A stretch of DNA of 40,260 nucleotides from a virus: the IMG/VR virus record IMGVR_UViG_3300021364_000056, positions 1 through 40,260 of that record; one strand, written 5' to 3'. Positions 8,808-40,260 of the stretch are shown one piece after another. Under the pieces are notes generated by a model. The model was not told the origin of the DNA. It made no database searches and worked only from the letters and a program-made list of their open reading frames with translations. The position numbers and the translations under genes were made by a program. Position 1 is the first letter of the stretch, and each line of letters begins with the position of its first letter.

Positions 8808-9599
8808 ATGCTAAAAATTTTAATAATGGGTTTACCAGGTTCTGGTAAAACAACATTGGTTGAAGAATTAAAAAAACATCTCTCTTTCGATCATTTTAAT
8901 GCTGATGAAATTAGAAAAAAATATGATGATTGGGATTTTTCTAATGAAGGTAGAGTGAGACAGGCGATAAGAATGTCTACACTTTCGAATGAATCCGTTA
9001 ATTCGAACAAAATAGCAATTTGTGATTTTGTTTGTCCTACCGAAGATTTGAGAACCGTCTTTAAAGGAGATTTAATTGTTTGGGTTAACACTATTCAATC
9101 TGGACGTTTTGAGGACACAAATAAACTATTTGAAGCACCTAAAAATCCGGATTATGTTGTTAGTCAACAAAAATGTGAGGTAGAAGCTCCAAAATTGACA
9201 TCTTTTATCATGAAAAAAATTAAAGAAAAGAAATATCCTAATAAATGGAATAATCAACATCCTACGGTACAGATGTTAGGCAGATGGCAACCTTGGCATA
9301 AGGGTCATAGATGGTTATTTGAACAAGCATTAGAAAAAACTGGACAAGTTAATATTATGATTCGTGATGTTTCAGGTGTTGGAGAAAATGTTTTTGATTT
9401 TTCTGCTGCCAAAAAGATGATACATGAAGATTTGAAAAATGATTTTAAAGGAAAATATCTAATCACTGAAGTGCCGAATATAGTTGACATTTCTTATGGA
9501 CGTGGTGTTGGATATTCATTTACAGAACATGTTCCTCCAAAAGAAATACATGATATTTCCGCAACAAAAATTCGTAAAGATATGGGAGTTAATAAATGA
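8808..9599 (+). CDS. APS kinase-like P-loop kinase fused to an NMNAT-like nucleotidyltransferase
   Basis: Residues 1-130 form a P-loop kinase with GLPGSGKT at 8-15. The arrangement (NADEIRKKYDDWDFSNEGR, then a PNP-like exit near 112) is most like adenylylsulfate kinase (CysC). Residues 150-263 form a small HIGH-superfamily nucleotidyltransferase with GRWQPWHKGH (158-167) and the matching ISATKIR (250-256), as in NMN adenylyltransferases. The order is the reverse of host NadR (NMNAT first, kinase second). It could act in NAD salvage or in making PAPS for the sulfotransferases in this window; the sequence does not decide. It overlaps thyX by 4 bases. Confidence 0.7.
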   Translation: MLKILIMGLPGSGKTTLVEELKKHLSFDHFNADEIRKKYDDWDFSNEGRVRQAIRMSTLSNESVNSNKIAICDFVCPTEDLRTVFKGDLIVWVNTIQSGRFEDTNKLFEAPKNPDYVVSQQKCEVEAPKLTSFIMKKIKEKKYPNKWNNQHPTVQMLGRWQPWHKGHRWLFEQALEKTGQVNIMIRDVSGVGENVFDFSAAKKMIHEDLKNDFKGKYLITEVPNIVDISYGRGVGYSFTEHVPPKEIHDISATKIRKDMGVNK

Positions 9600-15262: not shown

Positions 15263-15811
15263 ATGCCAACATCAGAACTTACTTTTGAATCATCAAATTA
15301 TGATTGGAATATTAGATCAATTGATGAAACCGTTGGCAGTGAAACGGATTCTGGTCAATTAGCGATATTCAATGGGACAGATAAAATATGGGGCTTGACA
15401 CAGCACGGTTATGTTCTGAAAAAAAATAATCCAGCATTTAATGTTTACGGTAATTCTGGAGATCGTAATCAATTCATACAATTTACAACAGCAAGATTTG
15501 ATAACACTAATTCCTTTGATTTGTCAACTGGAAAATTTAATGTTCCAATTCAAGGATTGTATCATTTTTCTTTTGAAATTAATTTTGCCTTAACTCCGTC
15601 AACATTTAATAGACCATTATTTAATATTAATGGAACTACTTCTGCAGAATTTGGAGATTCATTTGTGCAAGAGAATTCTAATGCAAGATCTTCAGGTTTG
15701 GCTATGACTTTTAAGTTGGAAGTTGGTGATACAGTAGGAATTTATATTCTAGGTGGAAATAGGGTAAATTCAACTGATCGTGGAGCATTTTCTGGATTTT
15801 TTATAGGATAG
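15263..15811 (+). CDS. C1q-like domain virion protein, 182 aa
   Basis: An N-terminal module of about 50 residues (LTFESSNYDWNIRSIDET... to IWGLTQHGYVLK) is followed by a C1q/TNF-like jelly roll: AFNVYGNSG, FNVPIQGLYHFSF, MTFKLEVGDTVGIYI, and the terminal AFSGFFIG strand. Such domains trimerise and decorate phage appendages. It is a paralogue of the next gene with the same two-part layout. There is no signal peptide. The ATG at 15263 has only a weak A-rich lead, so expression may be coupled to upstream translation. Confidence 0.75.
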   Translation: MPTSELTFESSNYDWNIRSIDETVGSETDSGQLAIFNGTDKIWGLTQHGYVLKKNNPAFNVYGNSGDRNQFIQFTTARFDNTNSFDLSTGKFNVPIQGLYHFSFEINFALTPSTFNRPLFNINGTTSAEFGDSFVQENSNARSSGLAMTFKLEVGDTVGIYILGGNRVNSTDRGAFSGFFIG

Positions 15812-15814
15812 TTT

Positions 15815-16381
15815 ATGGCAACTGAATCTCTAAGATTTAAATCAACCAATCAAACATGGACCTTAAAAGCAGAGGATGCGGGATATACTGGATATCCTAA
15901 TAGTGGACAATTTTCTATCTATAATGGTGCTAATAAGTTGTGGGGATTGAATGAGAGTGGGTGGATTCAGAATCCAACTGTAATTTTATTTTCCAGCTAT
16001 GGAAATTCAGGTGGCACATCATTTAATTCAGCGACCGTTGTACCATACAATCAAATCGTGGATAATGTTGGCGGACATTATGACCCTACAACGTATACAT
16101 TTACAGCACCTATAGATGGTAAATATTTTTTTAGCGCAAGTTTTTTAGAATTTCCAAGTGCATCAACAGGTTTTGTTACGTTTTGGTGTTCAAAGAATGG
16201 AGCGGGTTATAATTCTAGTTATCCTATGTCGAGAGGAACTTTGACTTCTCAACAGACATTAGGATGGCATGGTCACGTATCGTTGTCGGCAGGAGATTAT
16301 ATACAAGCAAAAATTGAAGGAACGGGAACTTATTATACAAGTGGCGGTCATGCACATTTTTCAGGTCATTTAATAGGATAA
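15815..16381 (+). CDS. C1q-like domain virion protein, 188 aa (paralogue)
   Basis: It repeats the layout of the upstream gene: LRFKSTNQTWTLKAEDAG... to LWGLNESGWIQ, then a C1q-like domain with FTAPIDGKYFFSASF, HVSLSAGDYIQAKIEG and a terminal HFSGHLIG. The two genes are separated by 3 bases and clearly arose by duplication, but have diverged in the outer loops, as expected of surface-exposed binding proteins. Probably a virion appendage or adhesin subunit. Confidence 0.75.
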   Translation: MATESLRFKSTNQTWTLKAEDAGYTGYPNSGQFSIYNGANKLWGLNESGWIQNPTVILFSSYGNSGGTSFNSATVVPYNQIVDNVGGHYDPTTYTFTAPIDGKYFFSASFLEFPSASTGFVTFWCSKNGAGYNSSYPMSRGTLTSQQTLGWHGHVSLSAGDYIQAKIEGTGTYYTSGGHAHFSGHLIG

Positions 16382-16385
16382 AATT

Positions 16386-16772
16386 ATGGCATACAATGAA
16401 CACGTAATAGATCATTTCAATAACCCCAGAAATGTGGGATCACTAAATAAAGATGCTGACGATGTTGGAACAGGATTAGTTGGCGCACCCGAATGTGGGG
16501 ATGTTATGAAACTTCAAATTAGAGTTGAAGATAACAGAATTGTTGATGCAAAGTTCAAGACATTTGGATGTGGATCTGCTATTGCATCTTCCTCATTGGC
16601 GACTGAGTGGGTTAAAAACAAAACCATAGATGAAGCTATGGCAATTCAAAATACTGAGATAGTAGAAGAATTATCGTTACCTCCAGTCAAAATTCATTGT
16701 TCTGTTTTGGCAGAGGATGCCATAAAAGCAGCTATTAATAATTATAAAGAAAAGCAACTGAAAGGTGGTTAA
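16386..16772 (+). CDS. iscU: Iron-sulfur cluster scaffold IscU
   Basis: IscU assembles [2Fe-2S] clusters from IscS-derived sulfur. All key residues are present: APECGD (C37, D39), FGCGSAIASSS (C62) and the chaperone-binding LPPVKIHCS (98-106, C105). Length 128 aa equals cellular IscU. No IscS, HscA or HscB is seen here, so it would depend on host partners. The region looks somewhat richer in G and C than its neighbours, which suggests host origin or selection for expression. IscA follows within 400 bases. Confidence 0.95.
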   Translation: MAYNEHVIDHFNNPRNVGSLNKDADDVGTGLVGAPECGDVMKLQIRVEDNRIVDAKFKTFGCGSAIASSSLATEWVKNKTIDEAMAIQNTEIVEELSLPPVKIHCSVLAEDAIKAAINNYKEKQLKGG

Positions 16773-17017: not shown

Positions 17018-17157
17018 TTTATGTTGTAAAAATTGGATACAAAACTGTTTATAAGACTAATAAATGGGAAGATGCTCTAAAAGCAGTTAAAGAAGTATTC
17101 AAAAGAGGCCATGATGATGTATATTTGTTAGGAGGGAAAATTGGATATTGGAGGTAA
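17014..17157 (+). CDS. Small protein, 47 aa, unknown
   Basis: An ATGA overlap with the gene before and a 17-base overlap with iscA frame this 47-codon gene (MIYVVKIGYKTVYKTNKWED to GGKIGYWR). The beta-beta-alpha-beta pattern (a strand, a strand, a WEDALKAVKEVFKRG helix, a VYLLG strand) looks like a complete tiny fold. The GGAGGG that serves as the iscA ribosome-binding site lies inside it. Function not known. Confidence 0.6.
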   Translation: MIYVVKIGYKTVYKTNKWEDALKAVKEVFKRGHDDVYLLGGKIGYWR

Positions 17158-17485
17158 AAATTTTACAATATCTACTACAGAAAAAGCAAGAAATATATTT
17201 TCTCAGGCAGATGAAAAATTTATACGAGTTGGAGCAAATCCGGGAGGATGTTCAGGATGGAGATGGACGCTTGAGTCGACCAATGACCTCAAACTCACTG
17301 ATGTTACTTTTGAAAACGGAAAAATAATTATTGATAAAGATCTATTGACAAATGTGATTGGATCTATTACAATAGATTATAAAGATGATAACTTGATTGA
17401 GCAGGGTTTTGTATTTATTACAAATTCTGGTCAATGCGGATGTGGGGAATCATTTCAACCTATAAATTCCTCTTATAGAGGTTAA
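17141..17485 (+). CDS. iscA: A-type iron-sulfur carrier (IscA/ErpA-like)
   Basis: Transfers clusters from IscU to target proteins. The three conserved Cys are present: PGGCSGW (C37) and QCGCGESF (C99, C101), with a 61-residue gap as in the family. Length 114 aa is normal. I use the TTG at 17141, 4 bases after GGAGGG. No ATG lies between the upstream stop and the conserved core. It is in one operon with iscU and ends about 25 bases before the tmRNA promoter. Confidence 0.9.
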   Translation: MDIGGKNFTISTTEKARNIFSQADEKFIRVGANPGGCSGWRWTLESTNDLKLTDVTFENGKIIIDKDLLTNVIGSITIDYKDDNLIEQGFVFITNSGQCGCGESFQPINSSYRG

Positions 17486-17508
17486 AAATTCTGACAAGAT
17501 ATTAGGTT

Positions 17509-17536
17509 TTGCGGCAACAAAACTTTTACATATAAT
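17509..17536 (+). promoter_or_regulatory. Sigma70-like promoter for the tmRNA gene
   Basis: A perfect -10 TATAAT (17531-17536) lies 16 bases downstream of TTGCGG (17509-17514, 3 of 6 -35 matches). It sits in the gap between iscA and the tmRNA, with predicted start near 17543. Confidence 0.55.
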
Positions 17537-17576
17537 TATAGCAATTAAGCTTATTATGTAAGGGATATCAAGCTGA

Positions 17577-17880
17577 CATTGCCGAGTCAGGAGTCCAGTA
17601 TGTGACTTTCAGAATACAGAATTTGCTTGTTGACTTGTGAAGATATTTTCTAACACGCAGGTTCGATTCCTGCCACCTCCACTGAGAGCATTAAGGTGCT
17701 TTGAGTGGGGGTGTAAAGGTATTCGATTAGTTAAAAAAATAACAATGAGAGCAAATCGGGTAGTGACCAACACTAAATAAAGTAGACGCAGATAACTCTG
17801 ACTACTCTCCAACTCAAGTAGCAATAGCCGCTTGATGTTGATGGGTTTGGGAGTACCTTGAAACAGAAACTCCCATTTTT
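17577..17880 (+). ncRNA. ssrA: Circularly permuted (alphaproteobacterial-type) tmRNA
   Basis: tmRNA rescues stalled ribosomes and tags the unfinished protein. The acceptor piece comes first. Its T-arm is GCAGG (17657-17661), TTCGATT, CCTGC (17669-17673), then the 3' acceptor strand CACCTCC (17674-17680) and discriminator A. A 25-base spacer (17682-17706) follows, then the 5' acceptor strand GGGGGTG (17707-17713), which pairs over all 7 positions with one G-U, and the D-like GGTATTCGATTAG. ATTTGCT (17621-17627) can pair with AGCAAAT (17750-17756) as helix P2. The tag frame starts at GCA 17788 and reads ADNSDYSPTQVAIAA, stop 17833-17835. CCA is not encoded. The 5' boundary is approximate. Confidence 0.9.
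17848..17880 (+). terminator. Rho-independent terminator of the tmRNA gene
   Basis: TGGGAGT (17848-17854) pairs with ACTCCCA (17869-17875) and is followed by TTTTT (17876-17880). It begins 12 bases after the tag stop codon. It may also form the last helix of the coding piece before trimming. Confidence 0.7.
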
Positions 17881-17902
17881 CAAAAAAAAATTTAGAGAGC
17901 AT

Positions 17903-18643
17903 ATGTTTGAAACCAAAGATATTATTTTCATTCATCTTCCGAAAACAGGCGGAACATTTGTGCATAAATTTATTGAAGATCAATGCGCAAAAAATCCGGA
18001 TTTCATAAAAACTTATTTTAAAAATCCTGGACATGGATATAAACATGCTACAATTAATCTTGAAGAAAAAAAAATTCGCAAAAAACATGTTTTAGGTACT
18101 GTTAGAAATCCTTTTGATCATTATGTTTCATGGTATTCCTGGTCTTTTCGGTCTGGAAATATTATGGCAGTTAAAAAGGATAAACTATTTGAAGAATGGA
18201 GAGAATTTAGAAATAAATTCAAAAACCCGAAAGATACTGAAGGATTTAGATATTGGCTGAAAATGATATTGACAAAGTATTTTATCAATTCACCTATACC
18301 GAGCAACCGAAATTCAAAAAATAATCCTAGAAGTTATCTGGAAGATGATATTGGACATTCAACATGGCTTTTTTTAAAAATGTATTATCAGTCGGATTTA
18401 TCATATTTAAAAAACCCAGAATTAAATCTAATAGTAGATTCTTATATAAGAACTGAACATTTGTATGAAGATTTGATAAAACATTTTAGATTTTTAAAAG
18501 AAGATTTTGATAATTTTAAAATAAAAAAAATTAATTCTTCAAATAGATTAGATAACTATAGGGATTATTATGATGATGAATTGATTGAATTGGTCTATCA
18601 TAAAGATAAATATCTTTTTGATAAATTTAATTATGCTTTTTAA
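17903..18643 (+). CDS. PAPS-dependent sulfotransferase family protein, 246 aa
   Basis: Transfers sulfate from PAPS to a carbohydrate or other acceptor. The 5'-phosphosulfate loop is IFIHLPKTGGTFV near the N-terminus and the 3'-phosphate motif is GTVRNPFDHYVSWYSW; this matches the Sulfotransfer_2-type. I start at ATG 17903, which puts the P-loop where the family has it. A TTG at 17858 would lie inside the tmRNA terminator. No signal or membrane segment. Acceptor unknown; a change of host surface polysaccharide or of a virion glycan is possible. A CA-rich leader for the next gene follows. Confidence 0.85.
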   Translation: MFETKDIIFIHLPKTGGTFVHKFIEDQCAKNPDFIKTYFKNPGHGYKHATINLEEKKIRKKHVLGTVRNPFDHYVSWYSWSFRSGNIMAVKKDKLFEEWREFRNKFKNPKDTEGFRYWLKMILTKYFINSPIPSNRNSKNNPRSYLEDDIGHSTWLFLKMYYQSDLSYLKNPELNLIVDSYIRTEHLYEDLIKHFRFLKEDFDNFKIKKINSSNRLDNYRDYYDDELIELVYHKDKYLFDKFNYAF

Positions 18644-30262: not shown

Positions 30263-31318
30263 ATGAATAAAACAATCAGTCTATTTTTGACTACTTTTTT
30301 ATTTTTCACGTTTAATATTTTTGCATCAGAAAAACCAACCGCAGGATTAGTTCTTGTAGGCCCAAAAAGTGATGGTGGATGGAGTATGCGTCACTATCAA
30401 GGAATGCAAGAATCTGGTTACGAATTTGATTATGTTGAATCTGTAGCAGAAGCAGATTCAGAAAGAGTGTTTAGTCGATTGGCGAGAAAGCACGATGTAG
30501 TATTTGGTACATCATTTGGTTATATGGAACCGATGGTAAGTACAGCAAAGAAATATCCAAATGTAAAATTCATGCACGCTACAGGATTCAAGACTGCCGA
30601 GAACATGAATAACTATAATTGTAGATTGTTTCAAGCAAGATACCTAGCGGGTGTTGCTGCGGGATTGCTTACCAAAACAAACAAGATTGGATTTGTAGGT
30701 TCTCATCCAATTCCAGAAATCATTTCAAATATCAATGCTGCAACTCTTGGTGCAAAATCAGTAAATCCAGATATTACAGTTCAGATTGTTTGGATTAATT
30801 CATGGTTTGACCCAAGTAAGGATGCTGCCGCTGCTGATGCTTTGCACAGTGATGGTGTAGATGTATTCTTTACAACAACTGATTCACCATCTGTAGTGAT
30901 GCTTGCACAAAAGAAATCAACACCAGAAAATCCGCTTTGGGGTATGGGCAATGATGCACCAATGAATTCTTTTGGTCCTGACCGATATGCAACTGGTCCG
31001 ATGTTCAATTGGGATGTTTACTACAGTCATGTAATGAAATCTGTTGAAGATGGAACTTGGGAAGTAGACACACCATTCTGGGGCATGGAAAAAGGTTGTG
31101 TTGATCTAAGTCCTTGGGGTCCGAATGTTCCTACTGAAGTTGTGAATATTGTTGAATCAGAAAAGAAAAAGTTTGTATTAGAAAAATATGATGCTTCTTT
31201 TCCATTCTCATCTGGCTTTATGAAGCAAGATGGAACAGTAGTACCAGCAGGTATGGGAAGATCAGGAATTGAATCAATGGATTTCTTTGTTGATGGTGTA
31301 ATCTCACCAATGCCATAA
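30263..31318 (+). CDS. BMP family (PnrA/BmpA-like) ABC substrate-binding protein
   Basis: A Sec signal peptide (ISLFLTTFLFFTFNIFAS) is followed by a periplasmic BMP domain: GLVLVGPKSDGGWSMRHYQG (the DxxxN/W nucleoside-binding entry), VFGTSFGYMEP, KFMHATGF, LAGVAAGLLTKTNKIGFVGS and the Asp-containing GVDVFFTTTDSP. Members bind purine nucleosides or related compounds. No lipobox Cys, so it is soluble in the periplasm. The codons look richer in G and C than neighbours, which suggests recent host origin or expression tuning. AAGGAG lies upstream. The partner could be the ABC genes downstream or a host permease. Confidence 0.88.
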   Translation: MNKTISLFLTTFLFFTFNIFASEKPTAGLVLVGPKSDGGWSMRHYQGMQESGYEFDYVESVAEADSERVFSRLARKHDVVFGTSFGYMEPMVSTAKKYPNVKFMHATGFKTAENMNNYNCRLFQARYLAGVAAGLLTKTNKIGFVGSHPIPEIISNINAATLGAKSVNPDITVQIVWINSWFDPSKDAAAADALHSDGVDVFFTTTDSPSVVMLAQKKSTPENPLWGMGNDAPMNSFGPDRYATGPMFNWDVYYSHVMKSVEDGTWEVDTPFWGMEKGCVDLSPWGPNVPTEVVNIVESEKKKFVLEKYDASFPFSSGFMKQDGTVVPAGMGRSGIESMDFFVDGVISPMP

Positions 31319-31347
31319 TATTAAAAAATAATAAGAGGAAAATAAAA

Positions 31348-32280
31348 ATGAAAAAAATTTACAGCATAATTTTAGCAATTTTTATTTCCTCCCTTGCTTA
31401 CGCAAAGGAGGAAGTTACTTTACTGATGGATTGGTTTCCGCAAGGAAATCAAAGTGTGTTTTGGCAAGCAATGCTTGATAACGATAAATATAAATTAAAA
31501 ATTAATGTTAAACCTGGAGGTCCAAAAGTTAGTACTACTGCGGCAGTAGCCAGTGGTCAGGTCGAATTTGGTCTGAATGGTTCCGATAGTGTTATGCAAG
31601 CAAATTCTAAAGGTGCAGGATTAGTTGCAATTTTTGCTAATCTTGACCATGTGCCTTATACATTAGTTTTTCATCCTGATCAGGGTATTAAAACAGTAAA
31701 AGATTTAGATGGAAGACGTTTTGCTGTAGTTCCAGGCATTACATACTGGAAATGGGTAAAAAAAGAATATGAATTAAATAATGTTGATGAATTTCCTCTC
31801 ACTGGAGATTTAGGTTTGTTTGCGAAAAGTCCAACTATGTTTCAGCAGGGATATAGTTTATTTTTACCCGCAAGAATGGATGCAAAGGGTATTCCTAATG
31901 ATCAAATTAAAATTGCCGATTTAGGATACAAACCATATAGTGTTTTATTTACAACCCAGAAATTTATTGATGAAAATCCAGAAATTGTCAGAGAGGTTGT
32001 TTATCGTTTGAGAGCGGCATTTACCAAATCCTTAAACGATCCCAAACCAACTATGGATTTAATTTTGTCAAAAACAAATAAGGTGGGGCCTGAAATTCAC
32101 ATGAATGCTATCAACCTTATGAAGAGTGAATTTCTACCAACAGACTATTCTCAATTAGGATGTATGAAACCAGGTAGATGGTTTAAATTATCTTCTCAAT
32201 TAAAAGAGGTCGATGCTGTACCCTCAAGTTTTGATCCCTCATCGTCATTTAATTTGACATTTTTAGGAAATTGTAAATAG
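31348..32280 (+). CDS. NMT1/THI5-type ABC substrate-binding protein
   Basis: Signal peptide (IYSIILAIFISSLAYA) and then the NMT1/SsuA-type fold: VTLLMDWFPQGNQSVFWQAM, AAVASGQVEFGLNGSDSVMQ, VKDLDGRRFAVVPG. Relatives bind thiamine-precursor pyrimidines, riboflavin, taurine, alkanesulfonates or nitrate. The residues do not let me choose. SAR11-type cells need outside pyrimidine (HMP) for thiamine, which makes that an attractive but unproven substrate. The ATPase and permease genes follow directly, so this completes an importer. Confidence 0.85.
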   Translation: MKKIYSIILAIFISSLAYAKEEVTLLMDWFPQGNQSVFWQAMLDNDKYKLKINVKPGGPKVSTTAAVASGQVEFGLNGSDSVMQANSKGAGLVAIFANLDHVPYTLVFHPDQGIKTVKDLDGRRFAVVPGITYWKWVKKEYELNNVDEFPLTGDLGLFAKSPTMFQQGYSLFLPARMDAKGIPNDQIKIADLGYKPYSVLFTTQKFIDENPEIVREVVYRLRAAFTKSLNDPKPTMDLILSKTNKVGPEIHMNAINLMKSEFLPTDYSQLGCMKPGRWFKLSSQLKEVDAVPSSFDPSSSFNLTFLGNCK

Positions 32281-32291
32281 TTGGATTTTCA

Positions 32292-32990
32292 ATGATTGAA
32301 ATTTATAATGTTAATAAAGTTTTTGACAATATTCAAACATTAAATTCAATAAATTTGAAAATTGCCACAGGCGAGTTCGTTAGTTTGGTTGGACCTTCAG
32401 GCTGTGGCAAATCAACTTTGTTGCGTATTATTGCTAATCTAATATCTTATGATGGATTAGTGAAAAAACCTGATAATGGGGCATTTGTGTTTCAAGATAG
32501 CGCATTATTGCCATGGAGAACAGTTGAGAAAAATGTAGAATTATTAATGGAGTTAGAAAAAAAAGATGAAATCAAAGAAAAGTCAAAAAAAGCATTAAAA
32601 AGAGTAGGATTATCAGGATTTGAAAATCATTATCCGCATCAATTAAGTGGAGGAATGAAAATGAGATTGAGTTTAGCAAGATCCATAGTTTTAAATCCTG
32701 AATATTTACTGTTAGATGAACCATTATCTGCAGTAGATGAGTTTACTAGAGAAAAACTTCAAGAAGAAATACATCAAATATGGTCAAATGATAAATTCAC
32801 AAGTGTTTTAGTTACACATAATGTTTCTGAAGCCGTTTATTTGAGTAATAGAGTATTGATCATGTCACCACGTCCTAGCAAAATTATACATCAAATTGAA
32901 ATTCCTTTTGAAAAAAGAACACCTGAAATTAGAGAAACTGATAAATTTTACAATTTAGTTAATGAAATAACTAGAAAGTTGAGATTATGA
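32292..32990 (+). CDS. ABC transporter ATPase (SsuB/TauB/ThiZ type)
   Basis: Complete nucleotide-binding domain: Walker A GPSGCGKST (34-42), Q-loop FQDSALLPWRTVEKN, signature LSGGMKMRLSLARS, Walker B YLLLDEPLSAVDEFTR and the switch His in VTHNVSEA. Length 232 aa is a little short for the class (about 250). The FQD...LLPWRTVxxNV pattern is typical of nitrate/sulfonate/taurine and thiamine-precursor importers, which agrees with the NMT1-type binding protein before it and the permease overlapping by 4 bases after it. Confidence 0.92.
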   Translation: MIEIYNVNKVFDNIQTLNSINLKIATGEFVSLVGPSGCGKSTLLRIIANLISYDGLVKKPDNGAFVFQDSALLPWRTVEKNVELLMELEKKDEIKEKSKKALKRVGLSGFENHYPHQLSGGMKMRLSLARSIVLNPEYLLLDEPLSAVDEFTREKLQEEIHQIWSNDKFTSVLVTHNVSEAVYLSNRVLIMSPRPSKIIHQIEIPFEKRTPEIRETDKFYNLVNEITRKLRL

Positions 32991-33763
32991 AATTGTTGAA
33001 AGTGATTCCTCCTATTTTTATATTGTGTATTTTTTTAATCATTTGGAACATTTCTGCTAATTATTATAATATGCAATTTTTATTACCTACACCATATTCA
33101 GTTTTACAGACTTTTTTAAATGAATTTGAAATAATCTATCAAGGTGGTTTGATTACGTTTAGAGAAGCATTTACTGGTTATATAATTGCTATATTAATAG
33201 GAGTTTTTATTGCAACAATTATGAGTTTATCTAAAATATTGGAAAATAGTCTATATCCATATGCAATACTTTTGCAAACAGTTCCAATAGTTGCTGTTGC
33301 ACCTTTAATAGTTTTATGGTTTGGGTTTGAAGAAAAAAGTGTCATAATAATTAGTTTGATCATTTCATTATTTCCTATTATTAATAGTACATTATTGGGC
33401 TTAAAATCAACTCCTAAAACACTTATAGAACTTTTTCAAATGCACAAATCAAGCAAGTTAAAAAGTTTCATAAAATTACGTTTTCCATTTGCCATACCTA
33501 ATATTATATCTGGAATGAAAATTTCTGCCGGGTTATCGGTGATTGGTGCAATTGTGGGAGAGTTCATAATAGGCTCTGGTAGTAGTAGCGGAGGATTGGG
33601 TGTTCAGATAATTTATGCACAGGCAAATTTAGAAACATCTTTAGTTATCGCATTAATATTCACTGCAACATTTTTAGGATTTGCTTTTTTTTCTGCAGTG
33701 TCTCTTATAGGATATAGTTTTTTACATAAATGGCATGAGTCAGAATTTAAGGAGAATCAGTGA
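32987..33763 (+). CDS. ABC transporter permease (SsuC/TauC/ThiX type)
   Basis: Six or so membrane helices. The EAA loop, which contacts the ATPase, reads ELFQMHKSSKLKSFIKLRFP followed by FAIPNIISGMKIS. GLSVIGAIVGEFIIG is also typical of the BPD_transp_1 family. Length 258 aa is standard. Both ends overlap neighbours: ATGA with the ATPase and GTGA with pyrB. Transporter and pyrB are therefore translated as one unit. Confidence 0.92.
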   Translation: MKLLKVIPPIFILCIFLIIWNISANYYNMQFLLPTPYSVLQTFLNEFEIIYQGGLITFREAFTGYIIAILIGVFIATIMSLSKILENSLYPYAILLQTVPIVAVAPLIVLWFGFEEKSVIIISLIISLFPIINSTLLGLKSTPKTLIELFQMHKSSKLKSFIKLRFPFAIPNIISGMKISAGLSVIGAIVGEFIIGSGSSSGGLGVQIIYAQANLETSLVIALIFTATFLGFAFFSAVSLIGYSFLHKWHESEFKENQ

Positions 33764-34653
33764 TCGAAAAAGGCAAGCATTTTATAACCTGTGATGGTTA
33801 TACTAAAGATACATTTGATTTGTTAATGACGGATATTTTTAGATCAGATATCGAAAATCCAAAAAAATTCGAAATTGGAAATAAAAGAAAATTTGTTGCA
33901 AATTTATTTTATGAACCTAGTACTAGAACAAATTCAAGTTTTTATGCTGCAGAAAAGTTTTTAGGATTTGAGGTTCTGAACATCAATGAAGTTGTTTATA
34001 GTAGCGTATCAAAAGGTGAAACATTTGAAGATACTATCAGAAGCATACAGACCTATGCAGATTGTATTGTTTTAAGACATCCTGAAACTGGTGCGGCAAA
34101 ACGTGCATCAATTATAAGTGAAGTACCAATTATAAATGCTGGTGATGGTATTGGTGAACATCCAACTCAAACTGTTTTAGATTTGTATACCATTGTGAAG
34201 CATTTTAGAAAAAGAAAAATAGAAGATTTGACGATAACACTTGTAGGAGATCTGAAATATGGCAGAACAGTTCATGGATTAATAAAGATACTTCATTTGT
34301 ATGGATGTAAAATAAATTTAGTTTCGCCGCATCAATTAAAATTACCTGTAGAACTTTTGCGTAGGGATGATAATCAATTTTTGAATGTGACTGATGAAAT
34401 ATTGAAAGAAACAGATGTTTTGTATTTGACAAGAGTACAAAAAGAAAGAGGAGCTATTATTTCAGCAGGTTCTTATTCATTAAAAGAAGAACATGCGAAA
34501 ATTTTAAATCCCAATGCAATAGTGATGCATCCACTTCCCAGAATGGAAGAATTACCTACATGGTTTGACAATGATCCCAGAGCAAAATATTTTGAACAGA
34601 TGAAAAATGGACTAATAACAAGAAAATATATCTTGAAAAAAATATTGTCTTGA
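33760..34653 (+). CDS. pyrB: Aspartate carbamoyltransferase catalytic chain (PyrB)
   Basis: Makes carbamoyl aspartate, step two of de novo pyrimidine synthesis. The carbamoyl-phosphate site STRTNSSF (54-61), the 80s loop VSKGETFEDTI, RHPETGAA, GDGIGEHPTQTVLDLYTI, VGDLKYGRTVHG, LTRVQKERG and MHPLPRMEELPTWFDNDPRA are all present. At 297 aa it is full length, like the unregulated catalytic chain; no PyrI follows. GTG start at 33760 overlaps the permease stop, behind AAGGAG. PyrC and CarAB are not in this window, so the host must supply them or they lie elsewhere. Confidence 0.95.
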   Translation: MIEKGKHFITCDGYTKDTFDLLMTDIFRSDIENPKKFEIGNKRKFVANLFYEPSTRTNSSFYAAEKFLGFEVLNINEVVYSSVSKGETFEDTIRSIQTYADCIVLRHPETGAAKRASIISEVPIINAGDGIGEHPTQTVLDLYTIVKHFRKRKIEDLTITLVGDLKYGRTVHGLIKILHLYGCKINLVSPHQLKLPVELLRRDDNQFLNVTDEILKETDVLYLTRVQKERGAIISAGSYSLKEEHAKILNPNAIVMHPLPRMEELPTWFDNDPRAKYFEQMKNGLITRKYILKKILS

Positions 34654-34673
34654 GTTATAATGATAGGAGTAAA

Positions 34674-35162
34674 ATGTCGTATGAGGGCGAATTAAAATTT
34701 ACAACTGCTGGAGATTTTATGACTTATAAAAAACAAATAGCCATTGCATCAGATCATGCTGGCTACATTGCGAAAGATATGGTTAGAGATTGGCTTAGAG
34801 AAAGAGATTATGTGACGGATGATTTTGGGGTTTTAAATAATGACAGCGTGGATTATCCTGATTATGCTAAAAAAGTTTGTTTGAATATTTTAGGAAAAAA
34901 TAGTGATGTGGGAATTTTAATTTGTGGAACAGGAATTGGAATGTCAATGGTAGCAAATAGATTTCCTGAGATTAGAGCCGCATTATGCACTGATAACTAT
35001 ACTGCTGAAATGGCCAGATTGCATAATAATGCAAATGTTTTATGTTTGGGTGCCAGAGTTTTAGATCCAAATAATATATGTTCAATAGTTGAAACATTTT
35101 TAAATACCGAATTTGAATATAATGAAAAACATTTAAATAGAATTAATAAATTTTCCTATTAG
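34674..35162 (+). CDS. rpiB: Ribose-5-phosphate isomerase B (RpiB)
   Basis: Interconverts ribulose 5-phosphate and ribose 5-phosphate, the precursor of PRPP. IASDHAG (24-30), CGTGIGMSMVANR with the catalytic Cys (C84), RAALCTDNYTAEMARLHNNA and NVLCLGARV are diagnostic. I start at ATG 34674 behind TAGGAGTAAA. A TTG at 34650 would overlap pyrB and add 8 residues. About 15 extra N-terminal residues precede the fold; a Met at residue 16 could also start it. Following pyrB, it fits a ribose supply for nucleotide synthesis. Confidence 0.93.
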   Translation: MSYEGELKFTTAGDFMTYKKQIAIASDHAGYIAKDMVRDWLRERDYVTDDFGVLNNDSVDYPDYAKKVCLNILGKNSDVGILICGTGIGMSMVANRFPEIRAALCTDNYTAEMARLHNNANVLCLGARVLDPNNICSIVETFLNTEFEYNEKHLNRINKFSY

Positions 35163-35168
35163 GTAAGA

Positions 35169-36221
35169 ATGGATCAAAATACTATAAAAAGAAGAAAATT
35201 AGGTCTCATAGACAAAGATATTGAAAAAATGCGTCCAGGTTACATTTTATATGCTTTACAAACTGGAGGCGGAATTGTAGATTTAATTGATAAAAATGGT
35301 AAAAAAGTGCATAAATGGAAAATGCCTGTTAGACCTGGACGTGATGCTGTAATACTACCGTGGAATGGAAATTTAGGTTATAGTGGAAGTCATGAAAAAT
35401 CTGTAAATTTATATCCTGCCTGGGATATTTGGCATGGAGGTCATTTTTTCGAAGTTACACCAGAAGGAAAAATTGTCTGGGAATTTGAAGATCCATATCA
35501 TCATCATGATTCTGTTTGGTTAGAAAATGGAAATATTTTATATGCTGCAGCGCAGAGAATACCGGGTAATGAAGAAGTTATTGGAGATGTTGTCAAAGAA
35601 GTTAATAGGAAAGGTGAATTGGTTTGGGAATGGAAATCTTGGGAAAGATTAAATATGGAAAAATTTAAAAATCACGAAAATTTTCCACAAGACCACTATC
35701 CCATGATTAATGGATTGAGTCTAACTAAAAAAGGCAATGTTTTGATGAGTCTGAGAAATACGAGTGGAATTATTTGTGTAGATAGGCATGTCAATAATGG
35801 TTGTGTCATTTGGGATTTTCCTTATCCAAATGTGGCACAACAACATTGTCCGTCACAATTGGATAATGAAAATATTTTATGTTTTGATAATGGAAACATT
35901 AGACCTAATTCATTAGTTCACTCAAGAATTGTGGAATTTGTTCCTATCACAAAAAAAATTGTGTGGACCTACACTGATCCCATGCCTTCGGCTTTTTTCA
36001 GTCCTTACATGGGTAGCGTTGAGAGATTAGGAAATGGTAATAATTTAATATGTGAAAGCGCATATGGAAGAATTTTTGAAATTACAAAAAATAAAGAAAC
36101 CGTATGGGAATATGTAATTCCAGATTTCGCCGAATATCCTGAACCTCTAAATAGTTTTATTACAGGCTCTCACAATAGTTGCTTTAAAGCACATCATTAT
36201 GATTCTATAAACTGGTTATGA
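35169..36221 (+). CDS. Arylsulfotransferase-like beta-propeller protein, 350 aa
   Basis: The repeated W-containing blades (VWEFEDPYHHHDSVWLENGN, LVWEWKSWERLN, IVWTYTDP) and the His-rich motif match the ASST/arylsulfotransferase-like propeller family. In ASST a His carries the sulfate; candidates here are HHHDS and QDHYPMIN. No signal peptide, unlike periplasmic ASST, so a cytoplasmic role is likely. Many ASST-like proteins have no tested activity. It lies between rpiB and an oxygenase with 1-6-base gaps. Substrate unknown. Confidence 0.75.
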   Translation: MDQNTIKRRKLGLIDKDIEKMRPGYILYALQTGGGIVDLIDKNGKKVHKWKMPVRPGRDAVILPWNGNLGYSGSHEKSVNLYPAWDIWHGGHFFEVTPEGKIVWEFEDPYHHHDSVWLENGNILYAAAQRIPGNEEVIGDVVKEVNRKGELVWEWKSWERLNMEKFKNHENFPQDHYPMINGLSLTKKGNVLMSLRNTSGIICVDRHVNNGCVIWDFPYPNVAQQHCPSQLDNENILCFDNGNIRPNSLVHSRIVEFVPITKKIVWTYTDPMPSAFFSPYMGSVERLGNGNNLICESAYGRIFEITKNKETVWEYVIPDFAEYPEPLNSFITGSHNSCFKAHHYDSINWL

Positions 36222-36222
36222 A

Positions 36223-37065
36223 ATGAAAATACCCGTTATTGATACAAACAAAAAAAACTCCGAATTAAAACTATACGAAGCATTTACCTCAATTGGTTTT
36301 GCATATATCGAAACAGATATAGACATCTCTCAAATCTTAGAATATACAAAAAAATTTTTTTCATTACCAATGATTGAAAAAAATAGAGTAAAATATGAAT
36401 CTACAGAGTCAAATTCTGGATATCAAGGAATGATAGAAAGTTTGACACCAGGTACACCTGTTGATATAAAAGAAGCTTTTAATTGGTGTGAATATCGCAA
36501 TGATAATAAATGGTATGATGATGAACAACGGCAAATTTGTTCATCATGGAATTTTCAATTAAATATACAAACAGAAAAAATTTTATCACTAATTGAAAAA
36601 TCACTAAAAATAAAACCCGATACTCTCATAGAATCTCATAAAAAATCTAAATCAACTACGTCTAGAATATTGCATTATCCTCCGTTTAATGGTAAAATAT
36701 TAAAAAATCAAATGCGAGGAGGTGAGCATACTGATTATGGAACAGTTACTTTACTATTCATAGATGAAAACCCAGGATTACAGATCAAGCCAAGAGGATC
36801 AAATGACTGGATCGATGCCCCAAAAATTAAAAATACGTGCATTGTCAATGTTGGAGACTTGTTACAGAGGTGGACGAATGATATCTATGTTTCTACTCCT
36901 CACAGGGTGGTTAATACTAATCTTGATGTCAGTCGGTATAGTTTTCCTTATTTTGTACATCCCAATGATGATGTTGTTGTTGATAGTCTCATTGGCGAGA
37001 AAAAATACGAAGCAATTAGCGCCAAAGAATATTTGGTCTGGAGATTAAATCAAAGTTATCTATGA
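36223..37065 (+). CDS. 2-oxoglutarate/Fe(II) oxygenase, isopenicillin N synthase-like
   Basis: The N-terminal region has the FAYIETDIDISQILEY and FFSLPMIEKNR pattern of the family. The iron ligands are HTDYG (near residues 168-170) and the His of VSTPHRVV. The 2-oxoglutarate Arg is in SRYSFPYF. NVGDLLQRWTNDIY is the usual strand before the second His. Length 280 aa is normal. The substrate cannot be read from sequence; members modify small molecules, nucleobases or peptides. The surrounding genes point to a nucleobase or nucleoside, by inference. Confidence 0.85.
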   Translation: MKIPVIDTNKKNSELKLYEAFTSIGFAYIETDIDISQILEYTKKFFSLPMIEKNRVKYESTESNSGYQGMIESLTPGTPVDIKEAFNWCEYRNDNKWYDDEQRQICSSWNFQLNIQTEKILSLIEKSLKIKPDTLIESHKKSKSTTSRILHYPPFNGKILKNQMRGGEHTDYGTVTLLFIDENPGLQIKPRGSNDWIDAPKIKNTCIVNVGDLLQRWTNDIYVSTPHRVVNTNLDVSRYSFPYFVHPNDDVVVDSLIGEKKYEAISAKEYLVWRLNQSYL

Positions 37066-37544
37066 AAACGGCAATAGTAGTAGCAATGAAAGAGGAATAT
37101 GACAATTATGATTTATTAACAGGTGTCGGTCCAGATTATGTCAAGAATAGTTTTCCAGATTTCATCAAAGAAAATAATGATTTGGAATTAGTAATAAATT
37201 TTGGAACTTGTGGTAGTTTTAAAAAAGAATACCACGGCATGTATAGTATCAGTTCTTTTAGTAACACATTAAATTCAAAGAGATTAGGAGATGATCGAGG
37301 TTTACATCTAGTTTCACATTATGAATTTTTGACAGATGCGCAAGGTTTTTCTAATGCTGATTTAGTGGATTGTGAAGCATTTTGGTTAAAGGAATTGTGC
37401 GATGAAAATAATCTTCAATTTCAATGTTTCAAATATGTTACAGATTATGTGGGTGAAAATTGCATAGATGATTTTCGGAAACATGTTGAAGATGGTAAAG
37501 AATCATTTGACCTTATTTATAGGAAAATTTATGAGAATAGTTGA
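37062..37544 (+). CDS. Nucleosidase/nucleoside phosphorylase-like protein, shortened, 160 aa
   Basis: Features of the PNP/MTA-SAH nucleosidase family: [42 protein letters not shown] (the ribose-binding Glu) and [10 protein letters not shown] (the catalytic Asp region). At 160 aa it lacks about 70 residues compared with MTA/SAH nucleosidase (about 230), mostly around the GVGK.NAA helix. It may be an active short form or a degenerate one. It overlaps the oxygenase by 4 bases and guaC by 14, so it is cotranslated with purine genes. Likely splits a purine nucleoside to a base for the Gpt-like enzyme. Confidence 0.7.
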
Positions 37545-38595
37545 GGAAATTAAATTAGATTTCAAGGATGTTTTAATTAAACCAAAAAGATCACAATTGA
37601 ATTCACGTAAAGAAGTCAATTTGCAGAGAGAATTTAATTTTAAACATAGTAGAATCACTTGGACTGGAATACCCATAGTTGCTGCCAACATGGATGGTGT
37701 TGGTACTATTTCTATGCACGATATTTTACACAATTATTCGTGTTTGACGGCACTGACAAAATATGTGAATCCTAAAGATTATCCAAATTCTCCAGATGTC
37801 ATGATTACATATGGAATTAATGATGATGTGGACGAAAATAATATTCCTGATATTGTTAGTTGGATCTGTTTAGATGTGGCAAATGGTTATACAGAAAGAT
37901 TTGTAAATTTTGTTTCAAAAATGAGAAAGAAATTTCCAAATAAAATTTTAGTTGCCGGTAATGTTGTAACGGCAGAAATGACAGAACAATTGATTTTAGC
38001 AGGCGCAGATGTGGTGAAAGTTGGGATTGGCCCTGGAAGTGTATGCACTACTCGCAAGATGACTGGAGTAGGATATCCACAATTGTCTGCTATTATAGAA
38101 TGTGCTGATGCTGCTCATGGATTGGGTGGTCATATTATTGCCGATGGGGGATGTACAGTTGCTGGTGATATAGCAAAAGCATTTGGCGCAGGTGCTGATT
38201 TTGTCATGTTAGGTGGTATGTTGGCAGGACATGATGAGGGTGAGGGTGAGATTGTTTCTAAGGCTTATAAAAAAGAAGAATATGAAATTGATGAAGAAGA
38301 TGTAGTTATGGATAGTCCTGCTTACATTAGACAAAAATTTGTAGAGTTTTATGGCATGTCATCTAAACAGGCACAGGAAATTCATAGTGGAGGTATGGAA
38401 AATTATAAAGCATCCGAAGGTAAAGTTGTGAGAATAGCATATCGTGGTCCTGTAAAGAATACTATTGAAGAAATTTTAGGTGGTTTAAGAAGTGCCTGTA
38501 CTTATTCTGGTGCACAAACATTGAAATCCTTACCAAAATGCACTACCTTTGTGCGTGTTAACAGTCAATTGAATGAAGTTTTTGGTAAATCTTAG
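37531..38595 (+). CDS. guaC: GMP reductase (GuaC)
   Basis: Converts GMP to IMP with NADPH. The N-terminus [20 protein letters not shown], the [10 protein letters not shown] strand, [18 protein letters not shown] with the catalytic Cys, [31 protein letters not shown] and the tail [20 protein letters not shown] separate GMP reductase from IMP dehydrogenase; there is no CBS domain. Length 354 aa is typical. The start is ATG 37531; earlier codons lie in the nucleosidase gene. It may move host guanylate towards the A pool needed by an AT-rich genome, by inference. Confidence 0.95.
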
Positions 38596-38608
38596 TTGAG
38601 AGGGTGAG

Positions 38609-38950
38609 ATGATAATATTTGTAGACATTGATGGAACTATCTGTCAAAATAGAGATCATTTGAGAAGAGATAGAAATGATCCTACGATCAGTTATGATCA
38701 AGTCGAACCATACCACAATAGAATTGAAAAAATAAATAAATTATATGATGAAGGAAATAAAATTGTTTATTGGACCGCAAGAGGTGTTTTGTCAAAAATT
38801 GATCATACCGAGTTGACTTTAAGACAACTCAAAGAATGGGGGTGCAAATATCATGAATTAATGATTAATAATAAACCTCATTTTGATATGTACATATGTG
38901 ATAAAAGCTGGAATTCAGAAACTTATTTCAGTAATTATTACAAGATATAA
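38609..38950 (+). CDS. Small HAD-superfamily hydrolase, 113 aa
   Basis: FVDIDGTICQN (nucleophile and acid Asp), IVYWTARG (motif II Thr) and a C-terminal MINNKPHFDMYICDK with the Lys and Asp of motifs III/IV make a minimal HAD phosphatase. Similar small HAD proteins are often labelled capsular or sugar-phosphate phosphatases. GAGAGGGTGAG precedes the ATG. It may act on sugar phosphates or nucleotides; the substrate is unknown. Confidence 0.8.
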   Translation: MIIFVDIDGTICQNRDHLRRDRNDPTISYDQVEPYHNRIEKINKLYDEGNKIVYWTARGVLSKIDHTELTLRQLKEWGCKYHELMINNKPHFDMYICDKSWNSETYFSNYYKI

Positions 38951-38983
38951 TAGCAAAATAAACTTATAAAAAAAGGGAGACTA

Positions 38984-39949
38984 ATGGATGTAACATTACT
39001 CTACACGATTATAGGATTTACACTTGCTAGTTATTCGGTTATTGCCAATGACAGTGTTCAAACACTAGGCACTTGGATTGCTAGTAATTCAGAGAAATTT
39101 AAATGGTATGTGATGTGGGCCGCAAGCAGTATTGTGCTTTTGTTCACTATATGGTATGGATGGTATGTTAATGCAGGAGATATTTCTTACGGAAGATTGG
39201 AAAAAATACCATATCAACCCGTTCAATGGTACCATGCAGTGGCACCTCTTGTGCTTGTGATATTGACAAGATTTGGTATACCTGTCAGTACAACGTTTTT
39301 AGTTTTGAGTGCATTTGCCAGCACAGTTGTATTAGAAAAAGTTTTATTAAAATCGGCAATGGGTTACTTGGTTGCCGCAGCCGCAGCATATATTATATGG
39401 TTGGCCGTATCAAAATATTGGGAGACAAAAACAGAAATTCCAGCAAGTCATGACAAATGGTGGAGGGTTGCACAGTGGTGTACAACCGGTTGGTTATGGT
39501 TTACATGGTTGAGTCACGATATGGCAAACATTGCAGTATTCTTGCCTAGACAAATTCCGATAGAAACTATGTTTATGATTAGTTTGATTTTTGTTGCTGG
39601 ACTATCCTATATGTTTTATGAAAAAGGTGGGAGAATTCAAGATGTCGTATTGAGTAAAACAAATACAAAATATGTTAGATCGGCAACATTAGTGGATTTA
39701 ATTTATTGTATAATTTTATGGTATTTCAAAGAATATAATAGTATACCTATGTCAACTACCTGGGTATTTGTTGGTTTGTTGGCAGGTAGAGAACTTGCAT
39801 TTGCTTCAGTGAATGGCAAATACAAGTTTAAAACTGTCTTTCCTTTAGTTGGGAGAGACTTTTTCAAAATGATGATTGGACTGGCATTGTCAGTTGTAAT
39901 CGTCTTGGCTATCCATGGATTTGCGTTCCAAGGATTTGCTAACTTTTAA
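38984..39949 (+). CDS. PiT-family phosphate permease
   Basis: An integral membrane protein with about nine helices. The duplicated PiT signatures are ANDSVQTLGTWIAS near the N-terminus and SHDMANIAVFLPR in the second half, each followed by a (P)STT turn (GIPVSTTFLVLSAFAST and SIPMSTTWVFVGLLAGRE). It imports phosphate with H+ or Na+. At 321 aa it is shorter than many PiT proteins (about 400-500), lacking the long central loop. AAAAGGGAG is the ribosome-binding site. Followed by pstS, it forms a phosphate uptake pair for a P-poor ocean. Confidence 0.9.
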   Translation: MDVTLLYTIIGFTLASYSVIANDSVQTLGTWIASNSEKFKWYVMWAASSIVLLFTIWYGWYVNAGDISYGRLEKIPYQPVQWYHAVAPLVLVILTRFGIPVSTTFLVLSAFASTVVLEKVLLKSAMGYLVAAAAAYIIWLAVSKYWETKTEIPASHDKWWRVAQWCTTGWLWFTWLSHDMANIAVFLPRQIPIETMFMISLIFVAGLSYMFYEKGGRIQDVVLSKTNTKYVRSATLVDLIYCIILWYFKEYNSIPMSTTWVFVGLLAGRELAFASVNGKYKFKTVFPLVGRDFFKMMIGLALSVVIVLAIHGFAFQGFANF

Positions 39950-39954
39950 TTAAT

Positions 39955-39987
39955 AAACTAAAACAGGTGTAAAAACCCTTAGTTTTT
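39955..39987 (+). terminator. Weak terminator-like hairpin before pstS
   Basis: AAACTAA (39955-39961) pairs with TTAGTTT (39979-39985), with an inner GGT/ACC pair, and the right arm runs into TTTTT. It may limit read-through from PiT or form the pstS leader. No PHO-box-like repeat can be seen in the gap. Confidence 0.45.
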
Positions 39988-40001
39988 ATATAAAGGACAT
40001 A

Positions 40002-40260
40002 ATGAAAAAACTAATCGCACTTATTTCTTTTGTGTTTATTGCAACTGTTGCAATTGCAAAAGATCAAATCACTATTGTAGGCTCAAGCACAGTTTATCCG
40101 TTCACAACTGTTGTAGCAGAGAAACATGGTCAGAAAGGATTCCGAACACCAATTGTAGAAAGCACAGGAACAGGTGGAGGAATGAAATTGTTCTGTGCTG
40201 GTATCGGACCAACACATCCAGATTTCACAAATGCCTCTAGAGCAATCAAGAAAAGTGAAC
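40002..40260 (+). CDS. pstS: Phosphate ABC transporter binding protein PstS (5' part)
   Basis: Signal peptide (KKLIALISFVFIATVAIA) and then ITIVGSSTVYPFTTVVAE, VESTGTGGGMKLFCAG and TNASRAIKKSE, the phosphate-binding Ser/Thr loops of PstS; the FCAG/ASR pattern is typical of marine Alphaproteobacteria and their phages. The gene runs off the right edge after 86 codons. TAAAGGA lies 8 bases upstream. Codons look richer in G and C than those of nearby hypothetical genes. Marine phages often carry pstS alone and use the host PstCAB. Confidence 0.93.
   Translation, partial: MKKLIALISFVFIATVAIAKDQITIVGSSTVYPFTTVVAEKHGQKGFRTPIVESTGTGGGMKLFCAGIGPTHPDFTNASRAIKKSE

Follow-up and report, generated by a model that had tools for sequence, protein, structure and literature searches.

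The question raised by this locus is whether the two-piece tmRNA found among phage genes is an intact gene that the phage maintains, and what it might do during infection. The window, by which we mean the whole 40,260-base stretch that was analyzed, is a linear IMG/VR viral record, probably a fragment, with a G+C content of 30.7%. It carries T4-type genes (DNA primase, ribonucleotide reductase, Hoc-like protein, PhoH, and a T4-type RNA ligase), and the tmRNA sits amid phage genes on this virus genome. The preliminary description regarded a permuted phage tmRNA as unusual, a view that is out of date: 133 unique phage tmRNA structures have been reported from 18,146 phage genomes, 53 of them two-piece by ARAGORN, and 50 of these 53 came from marine or aquatic phages (PMC9004378). 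A 2025 tmRNA database holds 79 unique phage tmRNAs (PMC11915505). Two-piece phage tmRNAs are already known, and the window adds a member that belongs to a separate phage clade and has an unclassified leader.

A near-identical copy of the window contig (99%) with an identical tmRNA tag was present in another assembly (L002/L090). L002/L090 had no clear match to window positions 15994-16356 (360 bases), which fall inside the second of two similar ORFs. Elsewhere in the window, positions 30263-40259 form a long stretch of metabolism genes (aspartate carbamoyltransferase, RpiB-like, arylsulfotransferase, 2OG-Fe(II) oxygenase, and IMPDH/GMP reductase) and transport genes (Bmp and NMT1 substrate-binding proteins, an ABC ATPase and permease, a phosphate transporter, and a PstS-like protein).

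The window encodes a complete permuted tmRNA

Positions 17619-17874 encode a circularly permuted tmRNA (Table 1). The layout given in the preliminary description, in which the T-arm and 3' acceptor strand precede a 25-nt spacer and a 5' acceptor strand that pairs at seven of seven positions, was confirmed in every part, as were the D-like loop and the tag frame with its stop codon. A covariance-model search gave a match to the Rfam family RF04321 (tmRNA_permuted), with 68.4 bits (curated cut-off, 47 bits; E = 3e-11 for the window as a whole), covering 17622-17835 and the model end to end (positions 1-213). ARAGORN also called a permuted tmRNA, with the tag ADNSDYSPTQVAIAA followed by a stop. 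The sequence from 17619 to 17765 folded with z = -4.6, none of 200 shuffles being equally stable, and in a second fold test of the tmRNA (z = -5.0) the native sequence was more stable than every shuffle.

All of the sequence-level features by which we recognized a permuted tmRNA were found, namely the strand order with spacer, the RF04321 score, the G3-U70 pair (pair 3 of the acceptor stem), P2, the pre-tag pseudoknot, the resume site, a tag with the ending small-hydrophobic-AA, and the stop. In the resume region, U(-5) and A(-4) are kept, as in the established resume signal. The gene encodes no CCA, the discriminator A being followed by CTG, a point on which the preliminary description was silent. 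The 25-nt spacer is presumably removed to yield two RNAs. Judged by its sequence-level features, in all of which it is complete, the window holds a real, intact phage two-piece tmRNA.

Table 1. Coordinates of the tmRNA, its leader, and neighboring features
Feature	Position	Strand	Basis or remark
Two similar structural-type ORFs	15263-15811 and 15815-16381		second holds the gap relative to L002/L090
IscU/NifU-like gene	16386..16772	+	phrog_8429, E = 3e-40; upstream of tmRNA, syntenic in relatives
IscA/HesB-like gene	17141..17485	+	phrog_17776; weak Fe-S_biosyn match, below cut-off; directly upstream of leader
Structured leader RNA, 128 nt; 7-bp closing stem AUUCUGA/UCAGAAU around branched hairpins	17488..17615	+	fold, alignment
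Leader copies in relatives	L003 3267-3399; L004 7677-7818		covarying with window 17488-17615
TATAAT hexamer	17531-17536	+	within leader
5' P2 segment GAATTTGCTTGTTGA	17619..17633	+	sequence
P2 5' side: UUUGC 17622-17626, UUGUU 17627-17631, CUAA 17650-17653	17622..17656	+	pairing in relatives
T-arm GCAGG-UUCGAUU-CCUGC	17657..17673	+	pairing in 28 phage tmRNAs
3' acceptor strand CACCUCC 17674-17680, discriminator A17681	17674..17681	+	pairing in relatives
Intervening spacer, 25 nt; hairpin, no ORF	17682..17706	+	sequence, fold
5' acceptor strand GGGGGUG	17707..17713	+	RF04321 match, pairing in relatives
D-like loop UAAAGGUAUUCGA	17714..17726	+	RF04321 match
P2 3' side: UUAG 17727-17730, AACAA 17741-17745, GCAAA 17751-17755	17727..17755	+	pairing in close group
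Pre-tag pseudoknot, GGU/ACC crossing AGUG/CACU	17758..17775	+	pairing in close group
Resume region GUAGAC, then GCA	17782..17790	+	sequence
Tag reading frame ADNSDYSPTQVAIAA plus TGA	17788..17835	+	ARAGORN
3' H-type pseudoknot, GGGU/ACCU crossing GGGAGU/ACUCCC	17843..17874	+	kept in relatives; element also in beta_tmRNA alignment
Sulfotransferase-like gene	17903..18643	+	phrog_3347, E = 3.5e-6; directly downstream of tmRNA

Pairings are kept in related phages

Related viral contigs were gathered through relatives of the neighboring IscU gene and through the T-arm sequence. A permuted tmRNA exceeded the RF04321 cut-off in 17 of 50 related viral records, a count that does not measure prevalence, since several records were chosen by tmRNA pattern. 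The score of the window (68 bits) was lower than those of its relatives (70-111 bits). One pattern match, L433, was discarded as a chance hit inside a structural gene on the opposite strand.

Twenty-eight phage tmRNAs were aligned with the spacer taken out, and slid alignments served as controls. Every one of the 196 acceptor-stem cells was paired, as were 137 of 140 T-stem cells (98%) and 100 of 112 P2c cells (89%; 92% in the close group described below). All three helices showed several pair types and stood well above the slid controls. G3-U70, the alanine identity pair, was present in all 28 tmRNAs. P2a, P2b, and the 3' pseudoknot were only about 60% paired on this alignment because lengths vary and columns mismatch, and the comparison was therefore repeated on a close group of six. 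There, all 30 cells of P2a (UUUGC/GCAAA) were paired, one position occurring in GC, UA, and AU versions; P2b was paired in 87%, a value not clearly above one slid control. The two helices of the pre-tag pseudoknot were paired in 100% and 92% of cells, and its sequence variants in L186 and L004 still pair; those of the 3' pseudoknot were paired in 92% and 81%, with compensatory changes. The P2 helix between the pieces, put forward earlier as a possibility, is thus real, and the acceptor, T-arm, and P2 pairings, whose loss in related phages would have spoken against a tmRNA, were kept. On this comparative evidence the phage tmRNA is kept by selection.

The same data bear on whether the locus could be a functionless relic, either a captured fragment of a host gene or the remnant of an attachment site. 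Integration often takes place at tmRNA genes, and pieces of such genes occur in prophages (PMC9004378). The gene in the window, however, is complete and covarying and belongs to its own phage clade; it lies in a conserved IscU neighborhood on a T4-like contig, and no integrase was detected among the proteins scanned. We consider a relic highly improbable.

The hexamer and the 3' stem lie within structured RNAs

The preliminary description also gave the tmRNA its own promoter and terminator, for which we found no support. The TATAAT hexamer exists, but it lies in the most variable arm of the structured leader and is not kept in relatives, and a promoter scan, whose overall count of promoters was at chance level, placed no plus-strand promoter there. 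The leader itself folded with z = -2.63. In an alignment of the window leader with those of L193, L003, and L004, pairing held in 98.8% of cells, versus 35-46% in slid alignments, and nine pairs had changed on both sides among these four sequences, two of which are nearly the same. No Rfam family came near its cut-off for the leader, and a search of 99 loci found no copies beyond L002, L003, and L004.

The leader follows the IscA-like gene and adjoins the tmRNA in the window and in L003, a strongly covarying element without a known family. It might be a ligand-sensing, riboswitch-like switch of tmRNA output, a role that would be compatible with ribosome rescue and that has been proposed for the glutamine riboswitch reported with the ssrA of the OM43 phage Melnitz, one of the phages with a two-piece tmRNA (PMC9004378). 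No Rfam riboswitch matched the leader, however, and the L004 copy precedes a 263-aa ORF, absent from the window, that runs into the tmRNA; the leader therefore serves the operon. A switch of this kind seems rather unlikely to us.

At the other end of the gene, the stem that had been described as an intrinsic terminator (GGGAGU/ACUCCC, 17849-17874) is one of two helices that cross around the conserved loop CCUnGnAACAGAA and form the 3' pseudoknot kept in relatives. A short T-run follows the stem in the window; relatives retain the stem without a T-run. The terminator scan found no terminator at the tmRNA 3' end in the window, and the stretch from 17849 to 17881 has a loop that is long for an intrinsic terminator. 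The 3' stem may nevertheless have a second role in termination.

The tag and the tree set the phage tmRNAs apart from sampled hosts

The window tag has 15 residues, with the body DNSDYSPTQV and the ending IAA. Sister-phage tags start with A[N/D]N[S/N/D/A]DY, and most end in A[L/I/M]AA. The motif A[N/D]NxDY is common to a phage-only clade and was absent from the host tmRNAs sampled, whose tags start with ANDN, ANDE, or similar. Among these, ANDNRLALAA and ANDNELALAA occurred in one order of small AT-rich genomes, which we take to be probably SAR11, ANDERFALAA occurred in beta genomes, and ANDNYAPVALAA and similar tags occurred in other sampled genomes. Another set of phage tmRNAs bears tags of the host kind (ANDEKFALAA, for example). 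The earlier guess that the phage perhaps uses a different tag held against the host tags sampled.

A quick tree set the phage tmRNAs with A[N/D]NxDY tags apart from the host clades as a clade of their own (SH-aLRT 96), the alpha genomes were separate (99), and a group of beta genomes and other phages was likewise apart. A weak branch (77) joined the phage clade to the alpha genomes. The locus had been assigned to the alphaproteobacterial form, with an alphaproteobacterial host. Permuted tmRNAs occur in beta-proteobacteria and cyanobacteria too, and the window fell below the cut-offs of all three class models: alpha_tmRNA (RF01849), 16.3 bits versus 50; beta_tmRNA (RF01850), 57.5 versus 84; and cyano_tmRNA (RF01851), 31.6 versus 70. 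Seven sister phages (L177, L178, L180, which is the tmRNA of L004, L185, L186, L190, and L295) passed the alpha cut-off. With these sisters and the weak branch, an alpha origin of the phage tmRNA is possible; the assignment of the window and its host to the alphaproteobacteria is not supported. The window aligned with the beta model over its full length and shares its 3' stem and the loop CCUUGnnAC. A beta host was nevertheless rejected, because genomes with typical alpha tags score 55-73 bits on the beta model, which makes the beta score uninformative.

A pattern covering both tmRNA pieces found no close host match in 84,980 genomes. The aspartate carbamoyltransferase of the window was also tried as a host marker and gave no assignment, the best matches (56%) being MAG contigs of Flavobacteriales and Proteobacteria, followed by Chloroflexota.

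Comparison with known phage tmRNAs

Like Melnitz and the marine or aquatic phages with two-piece tmRNAs, the window combines a complete permuted ssrA with a T4-like marine myophage genome and an ssrA-associated structured RNA. Unlike in Melnitz, this RNA is an unclassified upstream leader and not a glutamine riboswitch. The window matches RF04321 over its full length but departs from that family in its low score, the absence of an encoded CCA, and a 15-residue tag in place of the usual 10. BLAST of the window and three sister tmRNAs against 50,697 phage records found no two-piece phage relative; the 1.6-kb tmRNA region of the window found none among the phage records, and neither did two sister tmRNAs. 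Other phage tmRNAs gave short T-arm matches only. Among them, those of mycobacteriophages and Stenotrophomonas phages are likewise phage-borne with a conserved T-arm; they come from other hosts and match only over a short T-arm stretch. We found no paper on a phage tmRNA with SspB or on an intervening segment in the literature searched.

A probable role in ribosome rescue

We think it very probable that the permuted ssrA of this T4-like marine phage is complete, under selection, and used for ribosome rescue during infection. The observed order of parts suggests a single precursor comprising the structured leader, the acceptor/T-arm piece, the 25-nt spacer, and the tag-bearing piece. Host tRNA enzymes would excise the spacer, with RNase P cutting at G17707 and with trimming and CCA addition after A17681. 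The acceptor stem and P2, whose pairing is shown by covariation, would join the two resulting RNAs. From known tmRNA biology, charging through G3-U70 would fall to host alanyl-tRNA synthetase and delivery to stalled ribosomes to host SmpB; translation would then restart at GCA, appending (A)ADNSDYSPTQVAIAA. SmpB was found in none of the 17 viral records searched (the window included, and many of them fragments) and in 10 of 14 control genomes; the phage tmRNA presumably uses host SmpB, although a phage copy could lie beyond the 40-kb fragment. The likely benefit would be that ribosomes are freed and broken proteins cleared as host transcripts, and perhaps the host tmRNA supply, collapse.

The first half of the tag appears to be set by phage lineage, and the tag might retarget the products that carry it. 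A body unlike all host tags sampled could also suit a tmRNA that mainly interferes, by competing with host tmRNA or by adding a non-degraded tag that spares phage proteins or poisons host clearance. However, the tag keeps the small-hydrophobic-AA C-terminus typical of degradation tags, and the resume site, pre-tag pseudoknot, and stop are under selection, features that a pure decoy could do without. We regard interference as improbable and favor ribosome rescue. The data show a lineage of two-piece tmRNAs that belongs to phages, has a tag motif of its own, is kept intact by selection, and stands apart from the host genes sampled, which would mean that phages maintain ribosome rescue of their own.

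Small ORFs inside the spacers of sister phages

The spacers of sister phages are often about 100-110 nt long and contain a small ORF. Right after the CCA end comes a purine-rich ribosome site, followed by an ATG and 22-32 codons with a single hydrophobic span, and the stop codon touches the 5' acceptor strand or falls just short of it (in L178, for example, the ORF reads MEKKLMWLAIIILLALGITYATLFIGYDFR followed by a stop). Among the 51 distinct spacer sequences 80-120 nt long, 47 had such an ORF, versus 0.19 expected from letter shuffling, although two of the search patterns favored ORF-like spacers. The six long spacers from loci that came in through the IscU gene alone all have the ORF (two of the six pairs are close copies). 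Substitutions in the spacers favor the ORF frame: simple sums over sequence pairs, with no correction for relatedness, gave dN/dS of about 0.41 for 26 sequences and 0.22 for 6. Viral loci with spacer ORFs include L178, L185, L190, L177, L179, L074, L295, and about 40 others.

The spacers of three beta genomes (26-44 nt) are too short for such an ORF. The window spacer has none either, and the finding therefore concerns the lineage and not the window tmRNA. In the literature searched there was no report of spacer ORFs in tmRNA, which is no proof of absence. The excised part of the precursor is probably itself a gene, so that one transcript would give both a two-piece tmRNA and a small membrane protein, the latter translated from either the precursor or the spacer once excised, with the window as a short-spacer member of the clade placed directly on the leader. 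If translated, these ORFs would represent a new form of gene nesting, inside the removed piece of a tmRNA precursor.

A few longer sister spacers hold basic ORFs of 53-59 residues. The spacers of L320, L329, L400, L291, and L365 are about 190-210 nt long, with basic ORFs of 55-59 residues that begin with MSFREIWNGPSFL or MSKFYNPRDYDL. These two families differ at the start, and their ends are mostly alike (EHF.K.WD.DLWD).

Other genes beside sister tmRNAs

In L082, L086, L091, and L186, the last codons of a basic protein of ~51 residues (RCTICT..RWLGN..GR) overlap the 5' end of the tmRNA. In the first three, the segment that matches window positions 17619..17633 also encodes the end of this upstream ORF (EFAC and the stop); the window lacks the ORF. 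The protein had no PHROG match, and the one copy tested had no Pfam match. The spacer of L345 encodes a relative of it (13 of 21 residues identical).

In the region 8611-9624 of L004, an intact tmRNA, whose tag has the odd ending ALAV, is separated from a second, displaced 3' end by a gene for a homing endonuclease (NUMOD3, SegE GIY-YIG-like; 8842-9459, minus strand). The displaced 3' end encodes YTPARMAIAA and a stop and has a 3' pseudoknot of its own. This arrangement looks like an endonuclease insertion with a regenerated tmRNA 3' end.
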